64,000 nt of DNA from Cyrtodaria siliqua. Its lineage: Eukaryota > Mollusca > Bivalvia > Adapedonta > Hiatellidae. Within the stretch, counting starts at the first letter, position 1, and the number at the start of each line of letters is the position of its first letter. Below the pieces are notes generated by a model, which was not told where the DNA came from, did not search any database, and saw only the letters and a program-made list of their open reading frames with translations. This document shows, in pieces, positions 28,321-60,499 of this stretch. The stretch spans positions 1-64,000 of the forward strand of contig JAWPHD010004497.1 of assembly GCA_037043455.1 (NCBI GenBank). Reading direction: 5' to 3'. Made by a program: the position numbers and the translations under genes.

Positions 28321-28416
28321 TTAGTCGGTTGCAACGTTATTGTTAGGTTCTAATTTATAATATTCTCGATCTGGTGCTTCTTCGTCAGCTGGAGTTGTGT
28401 TATTTTGAGATTTGGG
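28321..28416 (-). CDS. Ig receptor exon 9: terminal tail
   Basis: 96 bp coding, phase 0. Acceptor ttcaactgtatag. Encodes PKSQNNTTPADEEAPD then REYYKLEPNNNVATD and TAA. YYKL after an acidic run is a typical kinase/SH2 site and also fits a YxxL endocytic signal. Confidence 0.68.
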   Translation of the reverse strand, partial: PKSQNNTTPADEEAPDREYYKLEPNNNVATD

Positions 28417-31400
28417 CTATACAGTTGAAATTGCCATAATTTAGGATGCCTGGTGTATTTCCTATACGACAATTATGCGACATTGTTTGGTACCACTGTC
28501 AGTCAAGAGATATGTCACGTGACAGTCGATTTTGTTGCAAACTTGCATCTGCGTAATACATTTCAGACATTACTGATGTGTCGATGTCGATTTCATTGTA
28601 AACAGGTTCTGAAATATGAAGCATTTATTTAGATTTGTGTATACAATAGTTTGTATGTACATGCATCTGTCCCTCATGTTGTAACCCAAGTTACCCTAAT
28701 CGTGAAAAATCGGCCAATCCCGTCATTCTTCAGGATCACGCCTCTTGTGTGTATCGACGCATCGGTATGTTCAAAATCTAGACATTTTGTTAGCCGGAAG
28801 ACAACGGAACAAACAACAGTGCACCGTTGCTTAGCTGTTGCTATGAAAATAATTCAGCCGTTAGTCACACGTGTTGATTTATAATTTACGTTGCATTTCT
28901 ACTATTTATAATACAAATGAAGGTTTTATCACAGCATTCATGTAAAATAAATTATAGATCGAGCAATCGGTTAATTGACATTGCAAAACATTGATGATAA
29001 CTTTGATTTTGAACACAAATTCGTTTTGGCGGGAATCTAAAGAGCGTCATGCTAGGATGACGTGTGCGTCATGCTATGATGACGTAACATATATGGACAC
29101 CGTCGAGTTACCTTCGAGTTATGCTTAGAAGAAGTATACGAGATATTGCGAATGAAGCTACCCGAGATAATAAATAATGAAATATTTGCTCTGTTTGTTC
29201 CGTTTATATTTGATTTATATGATTAACATAAACTGAAAACTAAACAAACTGTTAGTAACTGTATATAGTGTATTCAGAATCGTTGTTTATTTATTAAAAT
29301 TAAATCACCCAAGTTACTGTTTATATAGTGAATGGTGACGTAATCGATATAGAAAATATATTAAAGGAATTAACTAAAATACCCTCCACAGTTTTACACT
29401 AATCAATAAACACAATCTTACCGTCAACCTCTTCTCCTTGAATATACCTGAAACGTGTAAATACATATCTACATGACTGTATAAAGACTTTATGGTTAGG
29501 TAAAGACACTAAACATACTATACATGCAGTACAGTTAAATTCACCGGCCATGTTTTGTTTCATGAACATGTTTATGTTTATTCAATCAAATCAATACACA
29601 ACAATAGATATTTACAATTCACACATTGCAATATCTATGAAAAGCGAGAATACGATTTTATTTGATGACGTAGATCACCATTATCTGCTTGTTTGTAAAC
29701 TCTTTAAAGAAGAAAGAAAAAAAAATATACAGTCATACTATTTGAAACGGCCAAATATAATTAAATTCGAGGAAGTGATGAATACAAATAATGAACAAAA
29801 ACCTAAGAAATTAAGTGTGTTTATAGATATTGTTTTGAAAAGTGTAAAGACCTAGATATAAAACGATTGTGTTGAAGTTACAAATTATGTCATACCAGGA
29901 GTTAACCATAATATTATATTTTTGACGCTGAAAGTACAAATAATTGGTAATTGGAAACTTTTGATGTAAACCTTTATTATTATGTCTATGCTGAATGATC
30001 GAGTTATTATATTACACTAGCCTTTCTCTCGTCGTCTGATATGTTTCATTTTACTTAGAAACGTTTTCTGGTGAAGAATGCTATCACATTGGTAATACGG
30101 ACCGTCTGTAAAGTGTTTTCATTTACTGGGACTGCGTGTCTTGTAGTTTGACTGTCAGTGAAGTGTTTTCATTTACTGGGTTAAAACTTGCCTTCACTCA
30201 ACAACGTGTATGTATGCCAATGTTTATTTATCTAAAGTCTGTGGTAGACAAACTATGTTAAAGTAGTCATCAATTGAATTGCAAATATTAATAACTATTA
30301 AAATTCCGTGGTGGATTAATTGTTTGACGCCTTTTAACTTAAAAAACACATACTATAAATCATAATGTCAAAATAACGTATGACAATTGTAACTATTTCG
30401 ATAAACTTAATCTGACTTTATAGGCACTATATAACGGTGCTCAAATTTAGATAATAAACAACTAAGTGTTAACTTAGTTGGATAGTAATATTATCTATAT
30501 TTATCCTTTTTGTCATACATATGAAAGTACTTGTATAACTTTATCTCATCGCAGACTGACATGAATTATCTCTCTTCATCTTTTCTGTCGCTTACTCGCC
30601 ATAATGATTGTTAAATATGATGTATTTTTTTTATATCCGTTGCTGTTTACATATGTAAATCTTGGAACAAACATTTTTGAATTGAATTGAGAAAACTTTG
30701 AACAGGTAAATTAATCAACGGGTAAATGTATTTATCAATTATCTTTCAATAGTTTTGCAGCTATACAATTCATATTTACCTATTTGTCCCAGTGCAGTCA
30801 AGTAGTGATAAAAGTAATATCTACGTCATACATTTACATACAACTTAGTAGCGGTTTTAAATATATGTTGGACTATCAAAAACAATTCATATGATGTTTA
30901 AGAGTTAAATTTGTTAATTGATAATACTACAAAAAGGGCGGCCATTCATCTTTAATCAAAGCCTAGACACCGATGCTTAACTTACAAGCAAACTTACCTT
31001 ACAAGTTACAGTACGAGATAACAGGTTACTAGTCATGAATACATTATTATAGCCAACCAATTCATAAAGCTATATAACTTTAAAAATAACGCAACATCAG
31101 GCTGGGTATACACTAGGCGACACTTATAAATACCTTAGTTACATGTTTTTTCATACGTTTTAAATTAAATGTACAATTTTGACAAAACAATTAATTTGAT
31201 GATCGCATTACATTTAGTCACCGTTTAAAAGGACGTGTTCAAACAATGAGCAAATTGTGATGAAAAATAAATGATGTATTAGCATTTCAAATAGGGACAT
31301 TTAAAAGTGTCGTCCAGTGTACATGAGCTGCTAACTGTTCAGTGTTTCTTCCAGCAAAGACTTGATTTTAGATAAACTAATTTACTGAAGATAAGAAATA

Positions 31401-34400
31401 ATTCATTTTCGCTCAGTAATGAATCATGTCTCGTTAGATGGGACTAAGTAGCAGATCATGCATATACACTATTTGATACAGTTGAATCATTTACTAAGTA
31501 TAAAACATTCGACATCGACATTTGCTTACCATGATACTAGAATGTTGACGTAGTTATCCCATGACTTTTAAACTGTTCACCTTTTAATTTTTTAACTGAA
31601 AAACGTGGGTTATAAAGTTACTTAAAGTTCAAATTCATTTTGCCAATATTGAATTTCAGAATGCAGTTTTAACATATAGCATAATATTTAAAATTTCAAC
31701 ATAATAACCTATTTTTTCCGCGCGATTGATATATATTGTAAAGGTATTGAAAAAAGGTTTCGTCTTTGAAAACAATATGGAAGCAAACAATTAATTGATA
31801 TAATAATAAGCGACACACGGTTCCCTCTCCTGAGGAAGTGCAACTGACAGATTTAACATAAATTACTTTAATATAGTCTAATGCCATTTGGGTGGGAACA
31901 ATATCAGAGCTGAAGACGATATTGAGATAAAAACTTACCTAACGGAGATTTCATTGTTGTTTGCTTGTTTATTATTTTCTGAAAAGACAGAAATTACATC
32001 TGGTAAGTTTAACAGTTCAAAGTCCCCCATTTAACCACTACTAATTGTGTTGGATACCTTTCTTTACAAGTGTTTTCTAGGGGGATTACACCCAAGGAAA
32101 TAGGTCTGAGATACTCGTGAACATGTCTAGCAATGAATGAATGTCGATTCTAAAGGAAGTTTGTATGGATGAGTTCACAGTTCTGTGATAGGCAACGAAG
32201 AGTATTAGACTACAATAATTGTAATATCCTGCACTGGCGCATGACAAGATACTTTCAAAATTGAGTTACTTATTTTACCATAGAAATGGACACACCGAGG
32301 TACAAATATGATCAGTTGATACTCGTACAAAATGCATGTCACTATAAACAATTGTGTTCACCTTACGATAATGAAAATAGTCAATAATAGTGAGGCAGGG
32401 TTTCCATGTTTTACTTTAATTATGTAAAACGTTAACGGTAGATCTATATTTGTAAAAAATATCTATTTAAATAGAGACAAGCTTTAGAAAGGGATAAGTA
32501 TCTTACTCTTATGCATCATCTGATTCCTTTTAACCCATATAACGGTCACGGCAACCACAACAATAACGAAAACCACACAAAGCGAAACCGCAATCACGGA
32601 CACATCGTTGGTTCTATTGTTATTGGTGTCTTTATCTAAACATGTGGAATTACTTAACTGTGGCGTTGTCTCTGAAATATAATACGTACGTCAATATCAT
32701 ATTATTGTCAGGATATGATAAACCCCCTGTGCAAGTCACGCCCCCTAGATTATAATAAAAGAAAAGCAATCTGCCTAATAGCGTTTACTACCACCGGTCC
32801 GTCAGTCGTTACTGTCGAAATGGGAATACATACCAATCAACCAGTCGACACGTCCGGTTACCGAGGTATAACTGAATATTGCCGCCAATAATAACATAAA
32901 TAAGGACTACACGTCTGTTTCAAAGTTGTTTTGACTGTATAATTATGTTGATTTTGCACATGAAATCAATCTCTGTTGATCCGAAGGAAGTGGTAGTCGA
33001 TGCCTTCTTTAATGAGATGCTTAACTAAGTAAAAGTGCTAGGTATATTAGTACTGCGAGAAATATGCTTAAAGTTCTCGAGCCATGTTTTGTGTCATGAA
33101 CATGTTTATGTTTATCTAAATCGAAATCAATAAACAACAATAGATATTTACAATTCACACATTGTGAAAAGTGAGAATAAGATTTTATTTGATGACGTAG
33201 AAAACTTTGAACAGGTAAATAATTCCACAGGTAAATGTATTTTTTAATTATCTGGCAATAGTTGTGTAGCCATACAATTCAGATTTACTTCATTTTCCCG
33301 GGCAGTCACGCAGTGGTAAAATTAGTATCTACGTCATGCAAATAATACTTATTTTTACATACAACTTAGTAGCGGTTTTCAATATATGTTTCTCTCCGAG
33401 ACTATCAGGAAATGTTCATATGATGTTTAAGAGTTAAATTTGTTTATTGATAATACTACAAAAAGGGTGACCATACATCTTTAACTAGTATGTGTATATA
33501 GTGAATCCAGTGGTAAACCAAAATTACCGAAGTTATTATGTCTACTTATATCAAATATTTAACAATATGGTCGACATATTGTCTTTGTCTTTGATGCATA
33601 TAGTTGTATATGTAAGAAGATGTATTATTTCGAACACAATATTAAGGCAAGCATTTGCATATGAATAAACGAAAGGTAAAAAGTAGTCCAATGCTGTTAC
33701 AACAGGATGTATTAAATTACTTAATATCTTCTAATAAAAACGTCAATCCCATCCCTCCATACCCGAATATTCATAATAATGTTGATATAGATTCTACATA
33801 TAACGCCGTTTTTATGATTGAAATAATTATTGGTGTTTATTCACTTGGATCCAATATTCGAACGTTTATATGCAACACAATACAGCAAGAAAGTGGAAAA
33901 GGAAAACGTCTATAAAACTATTCTGAATTGCTTTTTAAGATACGATTATGTAATGCTTATACGTGATTTATCCCCTGGGTAATTTTGTGAAAGTATTAAT
34001 TCATATCATGCTTTGTGTTGCTGTATTCAAAGATGAAATTGATTATTAGTTATTCTATTAGATATGTCGACATGTGGTTAACACATCTCGATATGTTTTA
34101 TACTAGTTGTCTTTCACGTGCCGCATCTATAAAATCGAAATGCAATACTTTTCCCAACACATGTTTCATAACATATTGGGACTTTTAATTTCCACAATTC
34201 TCCGACCACAAACAGAATAGTCAAAAGCATCTATGGTTGCATGGTTTAATCTATAGTGGTGTCCTCTTCTAGATACGTGGGCCAACTTAACTGGACTGTT
34301 GTTTTGTCTAAATTATAAGTTTATACACGTATCACAGTATGATATTCCAGGGTATAAAAATCTCGAGTCTAGGTCTCGTTTGTCAGATGTATAGTATCTC

Positions 34401-37400
34401 AAACCTGAGTAAAGTAAATCATTATCGCGCCTATCAATTCCAGCTAAAAGTTTCCATAACAGAGGCAATCAATGTCATGTATAACAATATATATTGTGCA
34501 TAACAAATCCAACTACAAGTGTATAACAATAGCAAAGTAAAAGCAACTATATTTACTTTTACATACCAGAGTAAAACAATTCCGCCAAATAAGGTACACA
34601 TTATTATCTACCAGTCATCACTTAATTCCCTTCTAAAGGAGAATAATTACTCGTTGTCGCCGCCTGCAATAACAGAAATACTGACGAAACATTTAGTTTC
34701 ATTTTTTTCTTGAATTACCGAAGTGATTATATATGATAATATCAAAACGTCAAGAACATGGTCGATTTGCCTTTTCAGATACGGTTATATATACATACCA
34801 AATGTATGTCAAACATAATGGTAAAGCACAAGTTTGTACGTGAATAAACGAAAAGCAAAAGCTTGCTTACGCAGTAAAATGCATATTAATTTACGTAATA
34901 TCCATCTAAAATAGTCACCCACCCCTGCCAACCTCTCTAATCTAAATAATAATAATAATAATGTTAATATGGCTCTGTTTAGCTATTTCAGTTTGTCTTA
35001 CACCGCTGTGTGTGTTGATTAATACATGCATTGGGTCTTTATACATTTGGATCAAACCAACGTTCATATATGCAACGCAACACATCTAGTGTTTGTATCA
35101 GGAAAACGTCTATAAACTATTCGGAATTGCTGTTTAATATAGGTGTATATTTTGGAGGAACAATACGTTTTCTTTACTAGTGAGTTTCCCTTTGCAATGT
35201 GTCTTTGTAATTCTCGAAGTTATTAATCTGTATCATGTAGTGTTGCTACCTTCAGAGATGAACATATATAAGGTATTTAAACATATTTAAATAAGTAACA
35301 TTTGCGCTTGCCGCTTAGTTTTGATAACCATTTCGTGACTTCAAATTCAAAGGAAATTGTTTACTAGTTAGTCTATGATAAATGTCGAAATTACGACGAT
35401 ATGTTTTATGTTATTTGGCTTCCACGTACCACAACAATATAATACATAGAGGATCTTACATGCCTGTTTAATATTGAATGAAAGAAGCTGGATCAAACCG
35501 ATATGATACGAGGCTGCCTCGTATCCATTTTATCCAACGATTTTAATAAAAGCAATATTATAAGGAGAAATTTTAATATAGTCGAACACGATAATACAAA
35601 AATATTGCTTTCTTGGTTTGATTGAGACTGTTCATGAACGGTAGTGAAAATTCAATATAATATAGGCACGAATGCTAAATTGTATTATCACATTATCACA
35701 ACTCCAATAATGCCTCATCATACAGTACATTTATTATTGTAGCTGCCTATATATTATATATAACAGTGTCGTAGGATGACGTCGTATGTTTGTATGATGA
35801 CGTCGTATGTTGATTCGGTCTTCTCCGTACGGCCCCGAACAAATGAATTACCTCGTCGATTTCCGTAAGCCAGTATTTTAAATGGTTACGGAAATTCCGA
35901 TGCACACCGAGCTGAACGGAACAACCGAACAATAATTCGGACTTTATTTGCATATTTATTAAACTAGTGCAATATGATAAATATATCATTGCTTTATTAT
36001 TTTCTCACACTGCCAGTCATGTGATAAATATACTATGCTAACCACAGAGCCATCACAATAATGAACAAACCTTTGCTTCCGTCGTTAGTGGTTTCCTCAT
36101 CTAAATATGTGGGACTACTGAACTGAACTGGTGTTGTCCCTGGAAAACAACAAGTTTATCAACGTATAACAATAACGTTAACCAGTGCATGACAATCCTG
36201 AGATCACGCCTCCCAGGGCATAACAATACAGCCAACCGTAAATGTGAAACAATATCGCCTACCAGTTTCGCCTTGTATTGTTTAAATCAGTCTCGTATGA
36301 TTAACAACCCTACTAATGTGTGACAATTCTGTCTACCGGAGTACATGATTGTATAAATGGACGTCGCAGCCTACAAAAACAGCAATAACGACAACAAATT
36401 GTGTCATTGTACATGTTATATACAGTTATTTTCACCATTGTATATTTGTTAATCAGCATGCATAATGTAAAAGCAAGACAGTGTACATAAATAAATGGAC
36501 CTTATTTTGTTTATTTATTTTAGTATGATGCATATGAACAAAACACTCTGTGAAAACTAGTGTCATGCACACGTCCTATACAACAACGGACAAATACTAA
36601 TACTATACCTATTTGGGTTTAATTTGGTCTTGTGTTTTCAGCTGTTACTCATTTATCAACACTAAGTTGCTAAATGTAGGTATAACAGTTTCCAGGAAAC
36701 TCATCAACAATAACGAAATATCGTATTCGTTTCAATATTTAAACAACGTCTACTTTATACATTCTAATAATATTCAATAAGATGGCATTTCATTAACAAA
36801 AACACACTAAACAATACCTGATGTGGTTGTTTCGGGTAAGAAGATATGCACTTCAGTTAGTCCAATGTATGATTCGCCTGTGACCGTCCTGCAGTCGATG
36901 CCGTTAGTCCCTTCGTCTTCTCTTGTTAAACCGTGTATATGCAAAGTCAAATTACTCTCATTATATTTCTGGGGATTTTTGTTGAAATTTCTTTCCTTAT
37001 CAATTAACACAAATCCTGCAGAAGAGCTGTAGTCACGTATCCATCGGTACATATTGTTTCTGATGTACGGTGACATATGAGTACTGGGTATCAACCGAAT
37101 ATCACAGTTAATTATTTTACCAGAGTATCTGCACGCTGTGTGGAGCTTACCACATGATGGCAATGCTGCAACGAAAGAATAGTATATTAGTTAAATAGTG
37201 TTTTGCTAAATATAAAATATACCCATCTCGATGACTTTCGCCTGTCTCCTTTATAAGCCTCCCAATATTCAAAAAGAAATCAGACTGTGATAACCCTCCG
37301 CATAATTAAAACCACCCTTCTAATGAAGCTGTGTTTCCAGAATTGAATATTTGGCATTTACTTTGATTTAACACCCATTCTTATATTTAATACAATAAAT

Positions 37401-40400
37401 CAAGATTTAGGTAGGGATAGGAAAGAATCTACTTATTATTATGTCACCTTTGGCATATAGTAGTCGTCCCGTCCGTCAGTCCGTCCGTTCGTTCGTTCAT
37501 CCGTACAATCGTGTCCGAGTGCGTTTAATAAATCTGACAATAATGGACACATTTTCAAATAACTTGGCACAATTGCTCACCACAACAAGACGACGTATCG
37601 CGTACAAAAACCAGGTCCGTGGCTTCAAAGTCAAGGTCACACTTAGAGGTGAAAGGTCAAAATGAAGTGCTTTCGTGTCCGGTTAATAACACTGACATTC
37701 ATGGACAGATTTTCAAATAAATTGGCACATGTGCTCATCACAACAAGCCGACATGTCGCGCAGAAAATCCAGGTCCGTGGTCCAAGGTCAAGGTCACACT
37801 TCGAGGTCAAATTTCACTTCCAGTGACATTTCTTGTTTTAAATTATATTTTTATACCTGTTTATATTTGGAAGGCGTAGTATTTTTCCATTATTTGTGAT
37901 TCCCCTTGCCATTTATTGTGTGTTATTACATTGTGTTAATGTAATCCATGAAGGTGTTAATTCGAGAATGGTTTGTCTAGATGAACATACAATCATAAGG
38001 TATACTTAAATGTAGATTATAAAACTGTGATGTTAGTAATTGCAGTAACGATCGGCATTTCAATTTAAAAAAATATAATAATAACTTCAGCATTAAACTT
38101 TCAGTACAACGTTTATAGCCTACTCACCATACATATACAATACAGTGAGAACAAGAACAACAAAGAAAATCAAAACAAAACATGGTAAGCAAATCTACAT
38201 TGAAGTTTACAGAGAAGCGTTATAGCTTTTTTTACCATTCTTTTCTTTTTTAAAAAGGAAAACAGGTTGAAATGTGGTAAAGAAATTTAAAATTGCATTT
38301 CATTTCGAAGTTTAAATGCAATATTAACATATTATGATAAGTTTATAACTGTTCTGTTCGAGTTAGTTTAAACTTATTTATTTTACATCGATATTAACGA
38401 AAGCTCTATGAACTTATTTGGATCACACTCGATGTCTTTCTGGGTAGAACCATTACTAAGCAATGCAGATAAAGTGTCTTGCTCAGGGACACAACTCATT
38501 TGGCAATGGCGGGAATCGAACCCACGAGCTTCGGATCCTGGGTCCAACGCTCTACCACTAGACCACAGTGCTCCAGTCTGTTCGAGTTATTAGACATTAA
38601 CGCATCACATTTGTTTATCGCGGGCCATCTGCAAAAGTAAGGTTTGGAATATTTCTGTCTTAAGTGCCTATATATTGGACATACAAGCAAAAAATGGTAT
38701 TCGTTTAAAAATATATTTTGGGTACAATGTATACATTTTCTATTTTCTCGCGGAATATTAAGATATCTTACCATTTTCAATGGCTAAATTGTGAGAGGAG
38801 AGTCTAAATCTAACCAATGCTATTCGGAATTAATTATCATATAATAGGTTTAAATAGTTTTCCATATCAAAGCTGTGTTTATAGCGGCAGTATGATTCTA
38901 ACCTGTTAGAGTTATTGATATTTGAGTACAAACTTTGGTGGTATGAGCCAATCAAGCGTTGTTTTATTAATTTATGTGGAATATCTGCTTCACATTGATA
39001 TAACCAAACATCCGAAAATCCAAGGTTGTCAAGGATGTCTTTAATTTGATATGCCCAAATGGAACCGTTAATATAATAATTATGATTATCAACATCGTTT
39101 TTCAACATCATGTATATTCTTTTTGCCAATAGATTTTCATTAAGATACAATATTTTAACCAATATCTGAGCATATTAAGTTTTCTCTTTATAATTAGTGG
39201 TACTCGGTCTAATTCATCGTATAAACCTGTGAGATTGGTAGACTTCTTGACCACTAAAATTCTTCTAACAAAATTTCGTATAGATTATTTCAATATCGTT
39301 AGCCTCGTCAATTCCGCAAACTTTTGAGATATAGTTTAATACAGAGGCAACTAGTGTGTCGAAAGGTCTACATTTGTCTGATATTGGTGAGTTTATTTGA
39401 TTGAATGTGGAAAATAAATTATGCAGTGCGAATGAAGCATGTTGTGCCAACCTATTTTGCGTTCTTAACTAAATTCCATTTTTGAAGAAGAAAAAGCACA
39501 TCTAATTAAAACAGGTGACAACTTCTATTATGCTATCATGAAGGTAAAACTTATATTGTGAGTGACGACCTCTTTCGAATATCATTCATTTTGTTTGTTT
39601 CTGTATTTATATTTAGGCCCCAGGTCCTACAATATACTTGAATGTCATTTAGTAACGACTGTAAAGAAGCGGGGGACGAAGCAAATACAACCTCATCATC
39701 GACATATAACATCATAAATAAACTCAGATTGTCGGTACTAAATATGTCATCAAGTTCTGAATTTACATATTCCGAGATTTCATTAATGAACATCATAAAT
39801 AGGATGGGCGAACTTGGGTCCCCTTGCTTTAGGCCGACATATGAACTTATGGGTTCTGATAATGTTGATTTATATCTAATGCTCGATTTGACAACATTAT
39901 ACATTGCCTTAAGTGCTCTAACAATGTTTGAGCATCGCTAAATTAAAAAAAGTATGTGTGCGGGGTGTGGGGGCATTGCCCCGGACCCGCTAGGTTATCG
40001 GGCCTATCTATGCATTTCAGGTCAGCTACGCCCCTACATACATTATGCTAGTATGTGCGAGAAGAATAAAAACACCCTAAACTATACCTGGTGTGGTTAT
40101 AACGGGCAAGGATATATACACTTCGGTACGTCCGACGTATGATTCGCTTGTGAACCTCCTGCAATCGACGGAGTACGTGCCTTCGTCGTCTCCTGTTAAA
40201 CCGTCTATATGTAAAGTGAAATTACTCTCAGTGTATTTATAGGGATGTTTGTTGAAGTTTGTTTCTTTATTTATTATCTCTATCCTTCCATGTGCTCTTC
40301 CGTAATGAATCCATCGGTACATGTTGTTTCTGATGTATGGTGACATGTTCGTACTGGGTATCAATCGAATATCACAGTTTATTGCTGTACCTGAGTAGCT

Positions 40401-41159
40401 GAAGGCTGTGTGGAGCTCACCACATGATATCGATGCTACAAAGACACAATATGATACTAGCCTAATATAAGTATGCGTTATCTACACCCGCTGACTTTCG
40501 CCTTGACGTTGCGTTAGCTCTCTCCCAATATTTAAAACGGTATTTTTAACGGCGCTCTGTCTGTTTGCATGACCATTGGGACTTTTTTTATCAAACAGTC
40601 GCTATTATATTCAGTACAATAATACAGATTTAGAATGCGGAAAATGTATAACCTATTTATTATTTTGAATATATATGGTGTACCACGAGTGTTACTGCAT
40701 GTTTTTATCGGTGAAGGTATTCAGTTCGAGAATGATTTGTGGTGATGTTTTAAAGCATAGACCTGTCTCAGCTATATTTAAATATAGATTCTGAAAGTGT
40801 AAATTAAATGTTCATGCTTGCAATCATGATACGCATTACATCATGATACGCATTACATGGTTTTATTTTTAAAATAAAAACAGTATTAAATAATATTTTA
40901 TAAGATGCATCGTACGGTGATAACTACATTATGTTTAATGTTTGTATACTAGTTCTGACGAGTTGTTGGTTTCCATCTTTATCACTATAATCATGATAAT
41001 GAAAAGATGCACCAAATCTCCAAACACATGTTGATTGCCACATTGTAACCTACCATTTCCAGCAAATTTATAGTAAAATAGTATCAGGTACTCACCCTGT
41101 GCGAATACGTATATTCTGTGTACGAATAACGATACACATATTAAAGACAGTTTCTCCAT
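28321..41159 (-). CDS. Two-Ig-domain type I transmembrane receptor, 9 exons
   Basis: Predicted single-pass surface receptor. Minus-strand exons: 41096-41159, 40088-40435, 36818-37165, 36071-36139, 32507-32671, 31939-31978, 29422-29447, 28574-28608 and 28321-28416. Every inner junction has AG/GT borders. Phases run 1,1,1,1,1,2,1,0 and the total is 1191 nt (397 codons with stop). Order: signal peptide, two ~116-residue Ig-like domains, 23-residue stalk, TM helix, tail with YIQG, VYNEI and YYKL. Tyrosine motifs with hydrophobic +3 residues are typical SH2 docking sites, so a signalling role is inferred. I do not recognise a named orthologue. A TATA box precedes the start. Uncertain points: whether Ig A and Ig B share one transcript (a dead signal exon lies between them), the weak donor of the 28574 exon, and alternative stalk exons. 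Confidence 0.72.
28574..28608 (-). CDS. Ig receptor exon 8: VYNEI motif
   Basis: 35 bp, phase 1-0. Acceptor gcttcatatttcag, donor ATCA|GTAATG (weak at +5). Encodes EPVYNEIDIDTS, with Tyr followed by Ile at +3, an ITIM-like or generic SH2 site. If the donor is ignored the frame runs 24 codons further, past MYYADASL, to a stop at 28499-28501. Confidence 0.68.
29422..29447 (-). CDS. Ig receptor exon 7: 26-bp micro-exon
   Basis: Acceptor tttacacgtttcag, donor GACG|GTAAGA, phase 2-1. Encodes RYIQGEEVD with the split codons, giving the first tail tyrosine. Its size would hide it from most gene finders; the joint frame with exons 6 and 8 is the support. Confidence 0.68.
29676..30690 (+). mobile_element. 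5'-truncated non-LTR retrotransposon, 3' end
   Basis: Inserted inside an R3 repeat copy, whose halves end at 29675 and resume at 30691. The first ~180 bp encode HHYLLVCKLFKEERKKNIQS and onwards to a stop near 29855. This matches the C-terminal segment of the LINE at 38.6 kb (EYHFLLVCPIYRHLRQKYSK). The 3' end is ttgaattgaattga, a typical short LINE tail repeat. It sits in the intron between receptor exons 6 and 7. No clear target duplication. Confidence 0.75.
30691..30955. repeat. R3 repeat copy 2, right half (left half 29535-29675)
   Basis: Continues the R3 block from gaaaactttgaacaggtaaa to ctacaaaaagggcggccatt. Confidence 0.9.
30960..31930. other. Intron of the Ig receptor gene
   Basis: An alternative cytoplasmic exon is possible on the minus strand: acceptor gttaaatctgtcag, exon from 31843 in the exon-6 frame, encoding CTSSGEGTVCRLLLYQL... 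to a stop at 31696. Its content is less convincing than exons 7-9. Confidence 0.35.
31939..31978 (-). CDS. Ig receptor exon 6: cytoplasmic
   Basis: 40 bp, phase 1-2. Acceptor tttctgtcttttcag, donor GTTAG|GTAAGT (near-perfect). Encodes NNKQANNNEISV, an Asn-rich linker after the membrane-proximal basic cluster. Confidence 0.75.
32507..32671 (-). CDS. Ig receptor exon 5: stalk, TM helix, stop-transfer
   Basis: 165 bp, 55 residues, phase 1-1. Acceptor attatatttcag, donor AAGA|GTAAGA. The stalk has NST and NRT glycosylation sites. Residues ~24-47 form a helix (VIAVSLCVVFVIVVVAV...IWV), followed at once by KRNQMMHK, a basic stop-transfer. This orients the protein with its Ig domains outside. Confidence 0.85.
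33075..33490. repeat. R3 repeat copy 3, uninterrupted
   Basis: Lies in the receptor intron between exons 4 and 5. Direct copy of 20540-20970. Confidence 0.9.
33510..34145. repeat. Tandem intronic duplication, copy 1 (partner 34712-35455)
   Basis: aattaccgaag, gaataaacgaaa, atatgcaac, ggaaaacgtctataaa, gaattgct and the end tttcacgtgcc are shared in order with 34.71-35.45 kb. Related pieces recur at 37.86, 40.68 and 47.75 kb, each between a signal-type and an Ig-type exon, so this is the first intron of the receptor unit copied several times. Confidence 0.75.
34246..34307 (-). pseudogene. Extra stalk exon copy ending in a stop
   Basis: After a phase-1-compatible acceptor (taaacttataatttag) the frame reads KTTVQLSWPTYLEEDTTID then stop. 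It matches the exon 4 stalk in content and register but has no donor. Either a dead exon or an alternative terminal exon giving a soluble receptor. Confidence 0.6.
34712..35455. repeat. Tandem intronic duplication, copy 2
   Basis: Direct partner of 33510-34145. Includes a small (aat)n run at 34947-34962. Confidence 0.75.
35460..36030. repeat. Duplicated block, partner 41470-41745
   Basis: tagaggatcttacatg, gatacgaggct, acggaaattccgatg, attcgg, atttgcat and gctttatta are shared in order with the region just upstream of receptor exon 1. It suggests that the sequence upstream of exon 1 is the old 3' end of a neighbouring receptor copy. Contains a partial R2 copy (35613-35655) and two gatgacgtcgtatg motifs (35776-35812). 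Confidence 0.75.
35993..35998 (-). terminator. Candidate poly(A) signal after unspliced exon 4
   Basis: AATAAA on the minus strand, ~35 nt beyond the read-through stop at 36033-36035. It could end a short transcript that keeps exon 4 unspliced. Confidence 0.4.
36071..36139 (-). CDS. Ig receptor exon 4: extracellular stalk
   Basis: 69 bp, phase 1-1, acceptor tgttgttttccag, donor AAAG|GTTTGT. Encodes GTTPVQFSSPTYLDEETTN... The same stalk sequence begins the transmembrane exon (ETTPQLSNSTCLDKDTNNN), so the exon is a shortened duplicate of it. Read past its donor, the frame continues as a short hydrophobic stretch, LFIIVMALWLA, to a stop at 36033-36035. Confidence 0.65.
36818..37165 (-). CDS. 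Ig receptor exon 3: Ig domain B
   Basis: 348 bp, the same length and phase as exon 2. Acceptor ctattctttcgttgcag, donor ATCAG|GTATTG. It keeps INCDIRLIPST, MYRWI, an NLT glycosylation site and GLTREDEGTNGIDC. The Tyr of the DxGxY motif is Asn here, and an extra Cys appears near residue 12. Clearly a tandem duplicate of exon 2. It is open throughout despite divergence, which argues for constraint. Confidence 0.8.
37455..37840 (+). repeat. Bivalve-type dispersed repeat with (GTCC)n and AAGGTCAAGGTCA
   Basis: cgtccgtcagtccgtccgtt followed by two ~140-bp copies of a unit containing cattttcaaataa.ttggcac, ctca.cacaacaag, ccaggtccgtgg and caaggtcaaggtcac. The motif set is one I associate with bivalve genomes. 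In the receptor intron upstream of Ig exon B. Confidence 0.8.
38128..38182 (-). pseudogene. Decayed second signal-peptide exon
   Basis: Ends at an excellent donor, TATG|GTGAGT. In phase 1 the frame reads CFVLIFFVVLVLTVLYMYG, strongly hydrophobic, but no in-frame ATG precedes it before a stop. The only nearby ATG (38182) gives the wrong phase. Its spacing to Ig exon B (~1 kb) mirrors that of exon 1 to Ig exon A (~0.7 kb). Together these indicate a tandem copy of signal-plus-Ig whose signal exon died. Confidence 0.6.
38250..39945 (-). pseudogene. Non-LTR retrotransposon reverse transcriptase, broken
   Basis: Reading leftwards on the minus strand: RT core GLKQGDPSSPILFMMFINE with catalytic LYVDDEVVFAS (39551-39904), then AQHASFALHNLFSTFNQI (39265-39450), a connection-type domain (38830-39162), and the Cys-rich C-terminus CIHCTQNIFLNEYHFLLVC (near 38700). 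The element lacks its endonuclease and RT N-terminus and carries frameshifts and stops. A SINE (38366-38576) is inserted near its end, and the last residues continue beyond it to ~38285. Clade not assignable with confidence. Confidence 0.85.
38366..38576 (-). mobile_element. tRNA-headed SINE (second family) nested in the LINE
   Basis: Minus strand: head ggagcactgtggtctagtgg, B-box gtgggttcgattcccgcc, then gtgtccctgagcaagacact, ggttctacccag, and tail aataaataagtttaaact. A perfect 13-bp target duplication, tctgttcgagtta, lies at 38353-38365 and 38577-38589. The copy at 51757-51964 is the same family. Confidence 0.93.
40088..40435 (-). CDS. Ig receptor exon 2: Ig domain A
   Basis: 348 bp, 116 residues, phase 1-1 (a shuffling-competent module). 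Acceptor ttgtgtctttgtag, donor CCAG|GTATAG. Likely B-strand Cys at residue 21 (AINCDI), core Trp at 42 (YRWI), an NFT glycosylation site at 72, then LHIDGLTGDDEGTYSVDC ending at Cys 92. That is the L-x-I-x-x-L...DxGxY...C signature of Ig folds. A further Cys lies at residue 5. Closely similar to exon 3 (SPYIRNNMYRWI is identical in both). Confidence 0.82.
41096..41159 (-). CDS. Ig receptor exon 1: signal peptide
   Basis: 64 bp. ATG at 41157-41159 gives MEKLSLICVSLF..., a Lys after the first residues and a hydrophobic core, ending in ...FAQ plus one base. Donor G|GTGAGT at 41090-41095. The core contains His-Arg, so signal strength is moderate. Phase 1 matches the next exon, which completes an Ala codon, giving a plausible cleavage site near FAQ-A. 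Confidence 0.75.
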
Positions 41160-45249: not shown

Positions 45250-45850
45250 GCTTTGATTTTGTGTATCCTCAAAATTTCGAAGAATAATTCAAAATTGACT
45301 CAAATTGAATCAAATAATCGACATTATAGTTTTGGTTTCAGTCTTATTTTTCTACAGTTTATTATGAAAACATTCAATGCTTTCAAAGCTTTTCCAATAC
45401 TTTTTTCTTTGTTCAATGCAAAAAGTCTAGTATAATTTACAACTGTACATAACAGTTGAAATAATTTACTACCTATATATAATCATCATTACAATTCCAA
45501 GATTCATTGTTTAATATACCACCTCTTTTTCTTAAAGAACATACGTTTTGTTTTAACAGTATTCATCTCTAATCCCCATTTGTTACAATAGTCATAAAGT
45601 AAATTTATATTTTCTTTTAATTCTTCAGATGATTTCTCCATGTTGACCATATCGTCCGCAAATAATAGTAATATTAGTACAATATTATCCACTTGTAAAC
45701 CAGTATTATTACCATTTCGTGAATATAGTTCTAGGTCCTCAATAAAAAGAGAAAAATATTTCGGAGTATTTATTTCCCCTTGCCTTAATCCAATCGCATA
45801 TTCGACAATTTACAATTTTCACCATTTCTTACACGTGATTTGACTTTTTA
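45250..45850 (-). pseudogene. Second non-LTR reverse transcriptase fragment
   Basis: Minus strand: VEYAIGLRQGEINTPKYFS and FIEDLELY (45721-45810), then ILLLFADDMVNMEKSSEEL and CNKWGLEMNTVKTKRMFFKK (45504-45692). These carry RT motifs, including catalytic FADD. A frameshifted continuation (LFALNKEKSIGKALKALN) reaches ~45300. A different subfamily from the 38-kb element (FADD against YVDD). Truncated at both ends. Confidence 0.88.
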
Positions 45851-46731: not shown

Positions 46732-46864
46732 CTACATCACAGTTATGACAAAATCGTCATTGCCGCTTTCCATATTGACATAATCGTCACTGCCGCTTTC
46801 CATATTGTCATAATCGTCATTGCCGCTTTCCATATTGACATAATGGCCACTGCCGCATTCCATA
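46732..46864 (-). CDS. Terminal exon with three tandem YxNM motifs
   Basis: After a strong acceptor (caaatctgaaatttgcag) the exon starts with one base completing a codon, then reads MECGSGHYVNMESGND, DYDNMESGSD, DYVNMESGND, DFVITVM and stop. This is a 10-residue, 30-bp repeat (46746-46864). YVNM/YDNM combine YxxM (PI3K p85 SH2 site) with YxN (Grb2 SH2 site), as in the CD28 tail. It lies 220 bp past the truncated Ig exon at 47.2 kb and accepts phase 2, the phase leaving receptor exon 6. The partner exons, including any TM exon, were not found. It could instead be a minisatellite with a chance frame. Confidence 0.5.
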
Positions 46865-47084
46865 CTGCAAATTTCAGATTTGAAAGATGAAGCATGTACG
46901 TAAATAACTGAATTATTTGTGGATAATACGTGTTTTATATGGCTGCATGAATAAATAAATGGAAGAGTGGCTGCGTGTATAGCATAAATGGAAGTTATCA
47001 ATTCTTAATTGCTGTACAGGTGCTAAGAAACATGTTTGTTTATTTGGTATTTTATGGTGAAGCTTTCCTCCTTCTCACTTACCA

Positions 47085-47231
47085 CAAATCTTCTTAGTGC
47101 TGTCTATAATGAGCCCATCGATACATGTTGCTTCCTATAGACAGTAACGTTTCAGTACTCTGTATCAACCAAATATCACAGTGTTTTGTTGTACTTGGAG
47201 TACACTGTGCGGAGTTTACCACATGCCGAGG
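47085..47231 (-). pseudogene. Third Ig exon, truncated and frameshifted
   Basis: Acceptor taggtcttttcag, then SACGKLRTVYS aligned to the start of Ig exons A and B. After a small frame shift, HCDIWLIQSTE and NMYRWAHYRQH follow. The second half of the domain is gone, and a strong donor-like GTAAGTGAG stands near the break (47075-47083). Confidence 0.75.
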
Positions 47232-49639: not shown

Positions 49640-49900
49640 TTTAACATTGAAGGTGTCAGTGGCAAAAAAGCAGTGTGGGTTTAAACCAGTTTTTATAGAA
49701 ACCTAACCATTACCTTATTGTTATCCCAATTAAACGGGACAGTGTACATAATGAAATCCTCACCAGCCTATATCCTCTAACAAACTAAGTATAACACAAA
49801 GATGATCATGTATATATGCATACAAAGTTAAAGCCTAGAAAGCCACAAAGCATGTGCTCAACATCTAGGCAAAAGTAAGTGCAAACAAGAGACAGTTACA
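49640..49900. repeat. Dispersed repeat family R1, copy 4
   Basis: ttattgttatcccaattaaa, ctatatcctctaacaaacta, gatcatgtatatatg and gaaagccacaa match copies 2 and 3. Confidence 0.75.
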
Positions 49901-50137
49901 CTTAAATACATAAGCATATCTATTTGTACAGCCTTTTTCATTAAATCTCAAAACATTACTCATATTAACTATCGTCTACTATGCAAATATAGATATAAAA
50001 ATCTAACAGGAAAATTCTACAGATTGTATACTCGGAATTGTGTCTGACGCGTATTTTCTGTTAGAGGACATACAATTGCTAGACAGAGTTAAATAAATAG
50101 AGACGTTTTGAAGAGTTGTGTGTGATTTAGTACTTAC

Positions 50138-50165
50138 ATGATGTGAAGACAAGTTTCTCTTTCAT
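50138..50165 (-). other. Possible relic of a fourth signal exon
   Basis: ATG-led MKEKLVFTS plus one base, then T|GTAAGTACT donor, phase 1 as in receptor exon 1 (MEKLSL...). Too short for a signal peptide and with no Ig exon downstream; weak evidence. Confidence 0.25.
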
Positions 50166-50286
50166 CTATGCCAATCGTTAAATTTTCAAAAGACGCGGTT
50201 TCCTGCTATTTTCTGCGTCTAGAATTCATGTATTAGAAGTAAACCAATTACGTTCGTATGTAATGTTTACATATTATAAATAAACG

Positions 50287-50368
50287 GGCTCTGTAGATCA
50301 CTGGATACGTTGCTGCTTTAGAGCTGCAGACCCATGTACCGCATGGGTTAGCTCTCCGTTGGTAAAAT
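50287..50368 (+). repeat. tRNA-like SINE head, degenerate
   Basis: gggctctgtagatcactgga (A-box region) and catgggttagctctccg (decayed B-box). Confidence 0.4.
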
Positions 50369-50857
50369 ATCTAATGGGAACGTCATATTTCACGTAATGC
50401 CCCTCTGAGTTCGATGTCCGAAAATAACCATACGTCGAATGTTAACATAATTTATTTCATTTCAGATTGCTTATTGTTTTAACACGAAACGTTCCCATCA
50501 ACAAATATAATTTAATGTGTTGGTAATTTTGTGGTTACACGAAACAAAATAATTACTCTGTCCTTATGCACACTGTTTAGTAACGATTTAATTGTTTATT
50601 GCTGTCTTTATGTTTACAGAATTGCATGTCACCATTCCTACGATTTAATTAAAACGTTGTGATAGACGTAAAAATAAAAGGCAACACAAAATAATTACAC
50701 TGTTTATTGAAGTTTTATTATTTACTTTCGAGATTTTATTTTGCTTAATTTAATGTCACCACTGGTAGACGTAAACATAAATAAATCACAAATTAAATAT
50801 AAAAAAAAGTATCAAACTGTAGTAATGAAAAGGATAACCAAATACAAACATATATAA

Positions 50858-50926
50858 ACGAAAACGAACACAGATAACCTAAAACGAACACAGATACACG
50901 AAAACGAACACAGATAACCGAAAACG
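50858..50926. repeat. ~20-bp tandem repeat, 3-4 copies
   Basis: aaaacgaacacagata with acc or cacg endings. Confidence 0.85.
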
Positions 50927-50929
50927 GTG

Positions 50930-51750
50930 ACGACTGGTGACAGGAGATCTAAAGGTTTCGACGAGTATTGTTTGAACCAATGACAACACACTGCATTCAG
51001 ACTTGCGGGAGTAATCTAAAACATATCCTGCCAAATAATTCACAGAAATTCCAGTCAATCATCGTTAATCTTCATATGGTTATATCTGATTGTGTCGTGT
51101 TTTAATTCATCTCGCTTCTGTTGTTTGTTTAACAGAAAAACCTGGCAGGAGTTTGCAAAAACAAAACCAACACCAGATTAACATTCTTAAAACTGTATAT
51201 GATATTTCAGTTTCTAAATATTATAGGCTGTTTCAATTGTTAAAGCAAATGTTATCACGACAAAAATGGTCATGTCTTCCTCAAATTCATTGTTTTAATA
51301 TTTCAATCTCTTAAAATAAAGTTGTTGTTTTTTTCCAATGACAAAGACAAAACCACGCCTACCAAACGCTGTTTGTTAGGCGTAAAAGCGAGAACACTTT
51401 TGACAAGGTTACTAAGCTTGTAATAAGCTATATTGCAACACAATATGTTCATATCTTATTCTGTTATTAGTCTTTGTATTCCAAAGTATGAAGCATAACA
51501 AATTATTGTTCTGTCTGTTCAATGTTCAAAAAGTGTGTCTCCATCGGAATGCCCGTAACAAATGTATCCGTTTATCATATGACTGATGTTTGAAGACAGT
51601 TTTTCCTTTTTATCTAACATTTGTGTCTTGCTGTAGGCTGAACACGCATGCCTTATTCAAAACAAAAACGAATAATCATCGATGACTATTGGAAGTACTG
51701 ATTATTGAGACAAAAACATTATATGGTTCTAAAATATAGTTTTATAGTTA
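50930..51750. other. Intergenic, nothing recognised
   Basis: 51460-51640 (actgatg, tcttattc and nearby words) weakly recalls part of the 1.65-kb array unit (1080-1290). No gene supported. Confidence 0.35.
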
Positions 51751-51756
51751 TGATGT

Positions 51757-51964
51757 GGAGCGCTGTGGTCTTGTGGTAGAGGATTGGACCCATGATCACA
51801 CATGGGTTAGATCCCCGCCATTACCATAGGGGTTGTGTCCCTGAGCTAGACACTTTAATTGCACTTGCTTAGTACTCGTTCTACCCAGGAAGACATCGAG
51901 AGTGATTCCAATAGGTTCATAGAGCTTTCTATTACAATCGTTGTAAAATAAATAAGTTTAAACT
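51757..51964 (+). mobile_element. tRNA-headed SINE, same family as 38366-38576
   Basis: Plus strand: head ggagcgctgtggtcttgtgg, decayed B-box gggttagatccccgcc, gtgtccctgagctagacact, gttctacccagg, aagacatcgagagtgattcc, tail aataaataagtttaaac. No clean target duplication, so older than its 38-kb relative. Confidence 0.9.
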
Positions 51965-51969
51965 TAAAT

Positions 51970-53415
51970 TTAGTTGCTATTATGCCTCTCCGGAAGTTAG
52001 AACTTAAATAAAATAGCTGTGATATTAACATAAATGCCATACGATATCTAGTGTTTTGCTATATATCACATGTGTTTCATAGTGTTACCGGTCAACTCAT
52101 ACCAATGTTAGATTACGGAACAAATCTTCACAATATGTTCCAATACACTGCCATCGTTTTCAAGTGCGCAAACGTCGAGAGGAATGTCTACCATATGTAT
52201 CATGCTACACCTGTACTATTCTATAAAACCACGTAACTGGTAATCGACATTTAAGCACACGTTTTCACAGTATGTAGCATGTTTGTATCAGTTCTGCTGA
52301 CTTTAGCACTCTAACAAATTATTTCTGTTTGAAATTCACAGGATGTTTCACGCATGCTCGACTGCTGTGCGTCTAACAAACTCGATCAGTGGCGTACAAC
52401 TACTGTAAATCAATTTTTTCAAAATAATTACATCTTCCCGGAATGGGATATTCACTTGAATAAAATCGATATCTTACATCATGATTCACTTGAATGCAAT
52501 CGAAAGCATGTTAGAGGGGGAAGTGATTTTCTTCGCAAATCATTTGTTTGTCCTTTCTATCAGTTTTGTTGTATACGTCTATCTAGCGCTATTGACTAAT
52601 TGTTTGCAGTTTTAACATGCTGTTCATACATTTATTTACTGTTTACATCAAATATATATATTTTTTATTTAAAAAAGTACGTTTGCATAAATGCTAAAAT
52701 GAGTTTGCAAAATGAAAAAGAACAGTAAACACATTATTATAACGCACTTGACAAACATCTGGCAATCCGATTGGTTGATGTTCAAATTTGCAACCATTGA
52801 ATAGTGCATAACCTGTCGCAGAACCAGTCATATGACGTTAACCACCAAAACGTGATGTCATTTAGTTTTATTTCAAAGCGTTTAAGAGTAAAACTTTTAA
52901 GAGTAAAACTGTCAACAACACTAAAATGCGTAGAAACGGATTAACAAGTATTGAAATGTTGACATTTGAAAAAGTATATAAGTCGTTTAACGGTCGCAAA
53001 GCATGTTTAACGCGTCCCCATTAAACAAAAGTGGCGTCCATTAAATGACAGTTTATCCTATTGCATGATACTACTAAAAGTTCAGTGTGCGGATATGAAA
53101 TATTGAAGATTATATTAAAATATGCTTTTACATATTTTCTAATATTTTCGTCCTAAGGGCTATTGTGCTGTTGTGATTCAGTAGCATGATGCTACTACGC
53201 TCAGTGTGTTAGTTGTTTTCCAGATATTTCCATCTTCGCTAACTAAAGTAGTAGATTGGCAAATTATTGAGACATTGGAGTAATGAAATTATGTTCAATT
53301 CCCGAGTTTACATTATCAAGTATGCAGATAGTTTTATAATATTTTATTGCAGATATGTTACAACATCACAATATTCATAGAAATATATGCAAATGGATTG
53401 AACAACAAGTTATTA
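51970..53415. other. Intergenic, nothing recognised
   Basis: An 81-codon plus-strand frame at 52354-52599 is the most protein-like, but I see no domain, signal or convincing splice borders. Left uncalled. Confidence 0.4.
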
Positions 53416-53421
53416 CAACTT

Positions 53422-53818
53422 TAGTTACAGTTCTCTCCATAGTTACAGTTCTCTCCATAGTTACAGTTCTCTCCATAGTCACAGTTCTTTCCATAGTTAC
53501 AGTTCTCTCCATAGTTACAGTTCTCTCCATAGTTACAGTTCTCTCCATAGTCACAGTTCTCTCCATAGTTACAGTTCTCTCCATAGTTACTGTTCTCTCC
53601 ATAGTCACAGTTCACTCCATAGTTATAGTTCTCTCCATAGTTACAGTTCTCTCTATAGTAACAGTTCTCCCCATAGTCACAGTTCTCTCCATAGTTACAG
53701 TTCTCTCCATAGTAACAGTTCTCTCCATGGTTACAGTTCTCTCCATAGTTACAGTTCTCTCCATAGTTACAGTTCTCTCCATAGTTACAGTTCTCTCCAA
53801 AGTTACAGTTCTCTCCAT
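53422..53818. repeat. 18-bp minisatellite, ~22 copies
   Basis: Unit ttacagttctctccatag with t/c variants. Period 18 keeps several frames open on both strands (VTVLSI on plus; MERTVT and GENCNY on minus). Confidence 0.97.
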
Positions 53819-53829
53819 GAAGTATGCTG

Positions 53830-54300
53830 ATAATTATTTTTTCCAACAATAGGTTGATTTGAAAAACGATTTTACGAAGATTAATTTGATAATTTGCCTG
53901 AGTTACATTTGTTTTCAATTGTATCAAGGTGACATGCTATATCATGCATGAAACCAATACTTTTGTGTTATAACGGTAAAATGATGAACGACTCAATTTG
54001 CATGTCATTCTATAATCTTGCTGTTAATGTTTTAAAATAAAATGAAGCAATTTGAGCGAATTGGTTTCCTTTTTTTTTGGCTTTACCAAACTACTGGTAA
54101 ATATATTAAAATGTTATTGTCAAATGAAACTTGAAACGCTCTTGTTCGAAGTCGCATATGCATTCCAATAAATGAAGCACAATTCGGTGTTGCAAAATAT
54201 TTAACTTGCCTCTTACTGCCTTATCAAGCCTTTTATGCGAAAATATAAAATACAAAGTTATATCCTAATAAAAAATAATGAACGAACGAACAAATAAATA
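53830..54300. other. Intergenic, nothing recognised
   Basis: AT-rich; no feature supported. Confidence 0.45.
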
Positions 54301-54304
54301 AACG

Positions 54305-54475
<171 letters not shown>

Positions 54476-54479
54476 AAAT

Positions 54480-54990
54480 AATGAACTAATGAAATGTGTT
54501 GTACAACCTGTTTTAATAACATATTTTAAATCGGGTTGGAATGAACACTGGTAATGAGCAGAAAGCCACGATATTGGAAACGAAGATGACTAGGGAAATT
54601 AATATGCTCGATACCCATTCAATCGAAAACTATGGCAATCAGTTTCCAGTTCCCATGGGAGGTTCTTAATCCTGTTGAGGCAGTTATCTACATACTTCTC
54701 GTGCTCCGGCCAACTGGGGTCGACTACGTTAATCCACACTCTAAAAGAAACGTAAACAAACGTTTGTCAATTCGACAGTTCTATTTTTCACTTATCTTTT
54801 TTGTAACAAATGGAATGAAAATATTATGTTTATTTTTACAATTTCCACTATCTCAAAACAAAGACAAATAATATCCCTATATAGGACTTTATATTGATTT
54901 TGTTTTGTTTATGGTAAAGGGTGTTTAAGTATGTACACCGGTTTAAATAATACGCTCGTATATATGTGGACAAAAACAAATGCATTAAAT
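54480..54990. other. Intergenic, nothing recognised
   Basis: A 79-codon frame at 54632-54871 shows no recognisable domain. Confidence 0.4.
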
Positions 54991-56876: not shown

Positions 56877-57150
56877 ATTGATTGAATTGGATTTTATAGT
56901 CGCACCAACAGCTATGGTCATATGGCGACTTTCCAGCTTCCACTGGTGGAGGAAAACCCCAGGTGCCCCTCCGGGCTATTTTCGTGCACGGGCGGGCACC
57001 TGGGTAGAACCACCGACGTTCCGCAGGCCAGCTGGATAGCTTCCTCACATAAAGATTCCTAGGCCCCTGAGGGATCGAACCTACAGCGGTGAGGGTCAAG
57101 CGATTTCAAGTCAGAGACGTTAACCACTCGGCCACGGACGCCTCACCCCC
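56877..57150 (-). mobile_element. tRNA-derived SINE with TSD, same family as the array SINE
   Basis: Minus strand: head gtccgtggccgagtggttaa, B-box gtaggttcgatccctcagg, core ggttctacccaggtgcccg and ttttcctccaccag, then catatgaccatagctgttgg and a short tail. A perfect 11-bp duplication, gctgtaaatag, lies at 56866-56876 and 57151-57161. The partner duplication near 11963-11971 lacks the element. Confidence 0.94.
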
Positions 57151-58654: not shown

Positions 58655-59155
58655 TTTCATACCCCATCCAACCCCTTCTCCAAGAAGCGAAAGCGTGGTT
58701 GGCTGGGCTATGAAATTAAACCTTAATGGCAGGCTTCATAACCGCTGCTCCCAAATAAATTCCATTTTGTTTATTTCGCTCTTCGGAGCATAGTATTTTG
58801 TTAGATACTGGGACCATACGCCGCTGAACATGGGGGAGGAAAATGTCCACCGCCATATGCATGCCATCTTCGGGATGGTTAAACTTATGTACTATTGTTT
58901 TATGAATTTGAGTTCAGCTCAACCCGGGGCTAGAGGGCGTGAGAGGTAGCTTACATATATCACTATTGTCTCAATCAAACCGAGACTGCAATAGTTTGTA
59001 TGTGGTGTGTTCGGCCGTTTCCAAAGGTCCATTATCATACTCTTTTAATCATTTGCGTATTGTAAAATTCTCAAAAAATCCGTTATAAAATCCTGCTAGT
59101 ACAGGCTTTCACATCACTTAATGCAATTAAGACGGGACCACGTAATGTGACGTAC
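58655..59155. repeat. Local duplication with 61549-61800, carrying R2 copy 2
   Basis: ataccccatccaaccccttctcc, tggttggct, aaaccttaat, tcctgcta, ctttc.c.tc.cttaatg and cgtaatgt are shared with 61549-61800. Between aaaccttaat and the ttgc.tattgtaa anchor this copy holds ~320 bp of R2 (58725-59045, inverse of 16190-16570) that is missing at 61.6 kb. Confidence 0.82.
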
Positions 59156-59897: not shown

Positions 59898-59945
59898 ATT
59901 ATGTGTGTGTGTGTGTGTGTGTGTGTGTATGGGTGTGTGTGTATT
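59898..59945. repeat. (TG)n microsatellite
   Basis: gtgtgtgtgtgtgtgtgtgt with a short interruption, followed by gtgcgtgcgt. Confidence 0.97.
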
Positions 59946-59999
59946 TGTACGTGCGTGCGTATATGCGAGCGTGTTTGATAACGGCGTTCTGTGACTGCT

Positions 60000-60495: not shown

Positions 60496-60499
60496 AACA

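Follow-up and report, generated by a model that had tools for sequence, protein, structure and literature searches.

The first 64,000 bases of contig C4497 of the bivalve Cyrtodaria siliqua (hereafter the window) carry, on the minus strand, a gene that is predicted to encode a 389-amino-acid (aa) type I membrane receptor with two V-set immunoglobulin (Ig) domains. We consider it likely that this receptor belongs to a clustered, germline-diversified family with rearrangement of V exons, flanks, and tails among its copies, and the best reading of the window gene is that it is a short-tailed innate recognition receptor of this family, for which a ligand and an immune role are proposed. What the DNA sequence establishes is the set of exons, the family, a frameshift in the tail, a mosaic structure, and replacement changes concentrated in loops of the V domain; sequence is also the basis for the junctions and the protein. 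Searches of the species' own genome covered the 2.88-Gb assembly (26948 contigs).

The Gene and Its Protein

An earlier note on this DNA described a nine-exon gene whose product has two Ig domains, a stalk, a transmembrane (TM) segment, and a tail with tyrosine motifs. We cut and joined the exons and recovered exons 1–7, as well as the beginning of exon 8, at the same positions, with intact AG/GT borders and matching phases. The eight exons run from 41159 to 28499 and sum to 1170 nt (389 aa), with phases agreeing (Table 1). They encode, in order, a signal peptide, two V-set Ig domains, a stalk, a TM segment, and a short cytoplasmic tail, which bears out the type I membrane plan. As judged from its sequence, the gene is real apart from its terminal exon, which is corrected below. 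Signal exons resembling exon 1 occur at two places on contig C6707 (70692 and 108654). Pfam matches in the TM region (TMEM154 and others) were all below threshold and were ascribed to composition.

The Terminal Exon Is Frameshifted

The proposed eighth junction and ninth exon did not hold up when the tail was compared with its relatives. We searched the genome with the 110-aa tail of the copy at C6707:48922 and obtained 31 matches; distant matches on C5732, C10099, and C10181 were set aside, and we grouped the other 28 into 20 places. The frame is open across residues 1–110 at 11 of these, counting the query's own, and the other nine, including the window's, are broken or incomplete (C512:373105 is incomplete only). 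Because the tail reads through unbroken at 11 places, the proposed intron and exon 9 correspond to coding sequence in the relatives. In an alignment of five copies, small deletions common to the window and C6707:66149 shift the frame just after LSRDIS; among the tail matches, C6707:66149 and C11684:59166 are both recorded with a similar break, although only the former was aligned. The segment REYYKLEP falls in the remnant beyond the resulting TGA. Divergence of the window from the C6707:66149 copy (3 of 110 positions before the window stop, 6 of 178 after it) decides nothing either way.

Three main endings can be read from exon 8: the TGA at 28501-28499 (1170 nt), a splice from 28543 to 28388 (1194 nt), and a splice from 28519 to 28388 (1218 nt). 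The ninth exon is very probably spurious, and we regard as improbable the alternative that it is spliced on past the frameshift to give a tail ending in REYYKLEPNNNVATD. Both donors reach the 28388 acceptor in frame and the AG of that acceptor is kept in all five aligned copies, but an in-frame fit comes cheaply: 13 of the 56 GT-AG pairs tried leave the frame open to 28321, and so phase agreement at the eighth junction is weak evidence. The two YxxI/L sites of the nine-exon tail (VYNEI and YYKL) are reached by just 109 of 2000 shuffles of its composition; the unbroken frame of the relatives nevertheless argues that this stretch is coding rather than intronic in them. The reported total of 1191 nt was matched only without the stop codon, as the 28543-28388 splice gives 1060 + 66 + 68 = 1194 nt with it; a cut after 28546 also yields 1191 nt, yet is not at a GT donor. 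Read from a single copy, a frameshifted terminal exon can pass for one interrupted by an intron.

Tyrosine Motifs of Window and Full-Length Tails

Three tyrosine motifs had been assigned to the window tail. VYNEI stands, YIQG lacks a hydrophobic +3 residue, and YYKL lies outside the window protein because the frameshift brings the stop at 28501-28499. The single YxxI site of the eight-exon tail is at chance level (884 of 2000 shuffles do as well). The window tail contains no pair with the spacing of an immunoreceptor tyrosine-based activation motif (ITAM; YxxI/L x6-12 YxxI/L) in either the eight- or the nine-exon model, and no inhibitory counterpart (ITIM; [SIVL]xYxx[IVL]).

Two of the 11 open tails, both from relatives on C6707, were read and analysed for motifs. 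These two carry YNEI, YAEI, YANI, and YYIL, and four sites are reached by only 8 and 4 of 2000 shuffles. Both contain a YNEI-x12-YAEI that resembles an ITAM (61 and 39 of 2000 shuffles) and one ITIM each (VHYAEI; 487 and 448 of 2000). YxxI/L motifs that occur in pairs and are phosphorylated on tyrosine attract tandem-SH2 kinases or phosphatases. The suggestion that the receptor signals through SH2 proteins is likely for the full-tailed relatives and less so for the window copy, which would then be a weak or non-signalling member.

A V-Set Domain with a Shifted Cysteine

The two window Ig exons share 75 of 116 residues (79% identity in DNA), and each is open in only the coding one of its three forward frames. 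A profile search, the check that had been advised for the Ig family, assigned V-set at the level of the whole protein (29.3 bits, cut-off 26 bits); the single domains scored below that cut-off, at 20.3 and 14.2 bits. Among 24 family exons (the 25 near-full-length exons described below minus one with an internal stop), V-set was matched at E up to 1 in 23, with a best value of 7.1e-6. PDB sequences matching a profile of the family numbered 285 at E up to 1. The best 60 of these include CEACAM1 (9.8e-06, the best value), CD2 (0.0012), CD48 (0.0029), MXRA8, and NCAM, and antibody light chains (from 0.0066) are also among the matches listed. A search of PDB with the single protein gave two Nectin-2 chains at E of about 1.

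None of the 24 rows has the canonical F-strand cysteine of V-set domains: position 90 (DxGxYxC) is V in 20 rows and I in four. An invariant Cys stands instead at position 92, two residues past the canonical place, in all 24, and the profile alignment sets a v at the position of the canonical Cys of CEACAM1. C5 is present in 24 rows and C21 in 23.

A Clustered Receptor Family

We searched the genome with the first Ig domain and found 40 matches, 25 of them near full length. These 25 V exons lie on seven contigs (two on C4497, six on C6707, two on C93, five on C4256, six on C512, three on C11684, and one on C10099), and an AG and GT pair in the window's phase was found at every one by a scan that accepts the first candidate pair. 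A search with the TM exon gave 34 matches; 17, including a partial one, reach E 1.2e-7 or better. These matches indicate that the window gene is one member of a clustered, varied receptor family. The gene number is not fixed, because very close exon pairs (C6707_42931 and C512_286073; C93_17862 and C4256_111568) may be alleles or recent duplicates.

The relatives differ in plan. A two-Ig relative at C6707:108654-125376 has an open frame of 1473 nt (490 aa) that includes a second stalk exon, and a one-Ig relative at C6707:92497-106191 has an open frame of 798 nt (265 aa) and ends in another kind of tail, in which YxxI/L, ITIM, and YxxM motifs were sought and none was found. This second tail type occurs at six places (E up to 9.2e-9) and is matched more weakly at others; five of the six are preceded, at a distance of 5.5 to 12.8 kb, by a TM exon of a second type, which is itself a weak match (E 9.7e-4 to 1.7).

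The description of the gene as undescribed is not established. Searches of a protein collection with the full-length protein and two Ig alignments (E 1, E 10, E 1) gave no match, but these negatives cannot carry the claim since the molluscan content of the collection is uncertain; literature searches of titles and abstract beginnings found no paper on this receptor family.

Two further loci touch on the family. C10099 59031-66600 (L046-L047) holds a distant relative with an Ig domain about 50% identical and an open 238-aa tail frame, which carries three ITIM-like motifs (5 of 2000 shuffles). C5732 97037-99177 combines a weak tail match (E 0.02, open for 194 aa) with a TM-exon match (E 0.09) about 2 kb apart, and perhaps represents a further branch. 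Separately, a search of the genome for C1q gave 827 candidates, and all 150 that were scored exceeded the cut-off; a C1q expansion of such size is typical of bivalves, in keeping with a bivalve host.

Replacement Changes Are Concentrated in Two Loops

The ratio of nonsynonymous to synonymous divergence (dN/dS) between the two window Ig exons is 0.44 (NG86). We then compared two predicted loops (residues 43-54 and 94-105) with the rest of the V domain in 23 exons, a set from which L022, lacking the B-strand Cys, was also left out. The loops have dN 0.65 and dS 0.53 (dN/dS 1.22), and the rest of the domain has dN 0.19 and dS 0.44 (dN/dS 0.44). A difference this large was reached by none of 115 circular shifts and none of 5000 permutations.

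The Window Gene Is a Mosaic

The minus strand of the window was compared with C6707 in 500-base pieces. From 63.6 to 41.1 kb the window is largely colinear with C6707:8.2-34.9 kb. Identity is 92-100% from 63.6 to 50 kb (one piece is unmatched) and about 77-95% from 50 to 41.1 kb, nearer the gene, where one piece matched elsewhere. The outer flank (49882-63590) is nearly identical to C6707:8.2-27.3 kb, most pieces being 96-100% identical, whereas the receptor part is rearranged. Between about 41 and 33 kb, a stretch with the V exons, the stalk, and the approach to the TM exon, most matched pieces fall in the two-Ig gene at C6707:108-121 kb, at 74-91%, and the tail region (31.5 to 27.7 kb) matches C6707:63.2-67.0 kb at 90-96%. 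Past 27.5 kb no colinear run with C6707 was seen in pieces of this size.

Informative sites agree with these assignments. In the 5' flank (41960-41160; 125 sites, compared without the 66-kb copy), 59 are private to the match at C6707:34 kb, versus 2 and 1 for the others. The first Ig exon shares 16 of 145 sites with the two-Ig gene (versus 2, 2, and 1), and the TM exon gives 4 versus 1, 1, and 0 of 58. Affinity lies with the 66-kb copy at 31749-31000 (36 of 149 sites versus 1) and in the tail (43 of 74 versus 0, 0, and 0). The signal exon (1, 2, and 2 of 24) and the interval 32499-31750 (5, 0, 1, and 1 of 160) are undecided. In a tree of 23 exon rows, the first window Ig exon groups with C6707_109337 (support 98/97) and the second with C512_347487 (100/99), and the fork uniting these two groups has support of 82/84.

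Flank, V exons, and tail therefore match three different places on C6707, and on this evidence the window gene is a mosaic; the true donors may lie elsewhere because the comparison took in C6707 copies only. From the near identity of the outer flanks, C4497 and C6707 are probably versions of a single locus that differ in their receptors, either haplotypes or a recent duplicate. We considered whether the 34-kb match is the 5' end of the C6707 gene g1 and rejected this, as the signal exon of g1 lies at 41702. A signal exon at C6707 34881 ends early, and the 34-kb match closes the colinear block that begins at 8.2 kb.

Relics, Repeats, and Mobile Elements

Besides the receptor exons, the window holds relics of the family and fragments of mobile elements (Table 1).

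Table 1. Receptor exons, relics, and mobile-element fragments in the window
Feature	Position	Strand	Remarks
Exon 1: start codon and signal peptide MEKLSLICVSLFVHRIYVFAQ	41096..41159	-	64 nt, ends in phase 1
Exon 2: first V-set Ig domain	40088..40435	-	348 nt, phase 1-1
Exon 3: second V-set Ig domain	36818..37165	-	348 nt, phase 1-1
Exon 4: stalk	36071..36139	-	69 nt; paralogous stalk exon at C6707:114768
Exon 5: membrane-proximal stalk, TM segment, basic stop-transfer	32507..32671	-	165 nt
Exon 6: juxtamembrane tail NNKQANNNEISV	31939..31978	-	40 nt
Exon 7: microexon RYIQGEEVD	29422..29447	-	26 nt
Exon 8, terminal: EPVYNEIDIDTSVMSEMYYADASLQQNRLSRDISLD, then TGA stop 28501-28499	28499..28608	-	
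Frameshifted remnant of tail exon (bulk of proposed last intron, and exon 9)	28321..28498	-	continuous in relatives
Decayed second stalk exon, stops just downstream	34249..34302	-	open counterpart C6707:119268
Decayed Ig exon upstream of gene	47046..47225	-	
Copy, probably relic, of second tail-exon type with 30-nt repeats	46738..46878	-	related open exons at five other places
Reverse transcriptase fragment inside Ig1-Ig2 intron	39551..39937	-	RVT_1 1.9e-15
Reverse transcriptase fragment	45504..45809	-	RVT_1 4.9e-09

The copy at 46738-46878 consists of four 30-nt repeats with units such as DDYVNMESGS, and contains two YVNM motifs and one YDNM. We rejected these YVNM repeats as part of the window gene, as they lie upstream of it and match the second tail type, the exon that terminates the one-Ig gene on C6707; the acceptor of the window copy looks altered. 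At the other end of the window, positions 1-9216 are a tandem repeat with a 1647-base unit whose copies are mostly 99-100% identical (one outer copy, 81%), and a similar array (96-99%) fills the first 5.6 kb of C6707.

Discussion

We favor the reading that the window gene is a germline-diversified innate recognition receptor. Its V domains would bind variable ligands, whether microbial or self. In full-tailed members the paired YxxI sites would be phosphorylated, bind SH2 proteins, and give the signal; the short-tailed window member, with VYNEI alone left, may signal weakly through that site or compete for ligand.

Several observations weigh against this reading. The gene model is a prediction from DNA sequence, and the link to immunity is putative. 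Matches to PDB have weak scores and often cover part of the domain, with several of the highest-ranking confined to the E-F part. Loop and disulfide assignments were made from sequence because an AlphaFold2 model of the two window Ig domains was poor (pLDDT, predicted local distance difference test, 41.5) and was not used. The first residues of the V domain likewise reach dN/dS 0.95-1.21, and the pooled ratios use related pairs with loop borders chosen with the alignment in view, so that the loop contrast is a strong description and not a formal test. Across 389 codons, the window gene and the 490-aa relative (with its second stalk exon removed) differ by dN 0.139 and dS 0.23 (NG86), and dN/dS is 0.60 (NG86) or 0.54 (YN00); this is mild constraint, and a young pseudogene could show the same. 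F-strand Tyr 88, present in 23 of the 24 family rows, is replaced (by N) only in the second Ig domain of the window.

That last change also bears on the main rival, that the window copy is a pseudogene with a frameshifted tail, a decayed second stalk, a weakened second Ig domain, and further relics. We think this unlikely, though it has real weight: relic stalk and Ig exons lie at the locus, and nine of the 20 tail places in the genome are broken or incomplete. Yet all eight exons keep their splice sites, the reading frame is open over 389 codons, and the like breaks at C6707:66149 and C11684:59166 (only the first aligned) suggest a short-tail form that was inherited and not decay of the window copy alone.

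A second rival is compatible with the anatomy described here and differs in function, the family serving adhesion or allorecognition rather than pathogen recognition. Cell-adhesion Ig domains are among the profile matches; against this reading, bivalves are not known for colony fusion. The unusual clustered V-set genes would also fit the Alr family of Hydractinia, as described in PMC11999971. We give this a somewhat smaller chance than the pseudogene.

A broader proposal can be put forward tentatively. The locus may be a bivalve germline "V-receptor complex" of clustered V-set receptors, with binding loops under diversifying selection and with flanks, V exons, and tails reshuffled. C4497 and C6707 would then be two versions of one locus that carry different receptors: signalling forms with a full tail, forms with an alternative tail, and forms with a short tail that act as decoy or co-receptor. 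All would share a V domain whose F-strand cysteine is shifted. Among families of variable V-domain receptors with switchable tails, those of vertebrates are the best known. In an animal that lacks antibodies, a family that is clustered, recombines, and varies in its loops as antibodies do would offer a direct system for two questions: how innate repertoires arise without somatic rearrangement, and whether loss of the tail turns receptors into decoys.

Comparison with Known Receptor Systems

The likenesses to fish, oyster, and Hydractinia receptors given here were judged by plan and description; on that footing the protein plan resembles those of the fish NILTs or Hydractinia Alr. The Ig domains of CEACAM, CD2, and CD48 have in common with the window family an Ig signature that is strongest around the E-F strands, but the matches are weak and often partial, and the F-strand cysteine of the window family lies two residues later.

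As described in PMC3022915, the NILTs of Atlantic salmon have one or two V-type Ig domains and tails with an ITAM or ITIMs, and lie in a tight cluster with pseudogenes and transposable elements. The window family is alike in its V-type Ig plan, its tyrosine tails, and its multigene cluster with pseudogenes and transposable elements; the window tail differs in having no ITAM or ITIM. One NILT has CX6C spacing (PMC3022915). Among the 24 family rows, CX6C occurs in four, including the second domain of the window, at the start of the domain, and CX3C and CX7C occur in none.

Among oyster receptors of the Ig superfamily (IgSF), CgIgIT2 is described in PMC11999971 as having five Ig domains and an ITAM, and one title cited there calls it inhibitory. 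CgIgIT2 and IgIT are, like the window receptor, molluscan membrane IgSF proteins with tyrosine-based tail motifs; by this description CgIgIT2 is set apart by its five Ig domains and ITAM from the two V-set domains and one YxxI site found here. The Alr family of Hydractinia, with 41 clustered genes and unusual V-set domains (PMC11999971), shares with the window family a clustered multigene IgSF organization and an unusual V-set, as far as description allows, and differs in its phylum and in its role in self-recognition.

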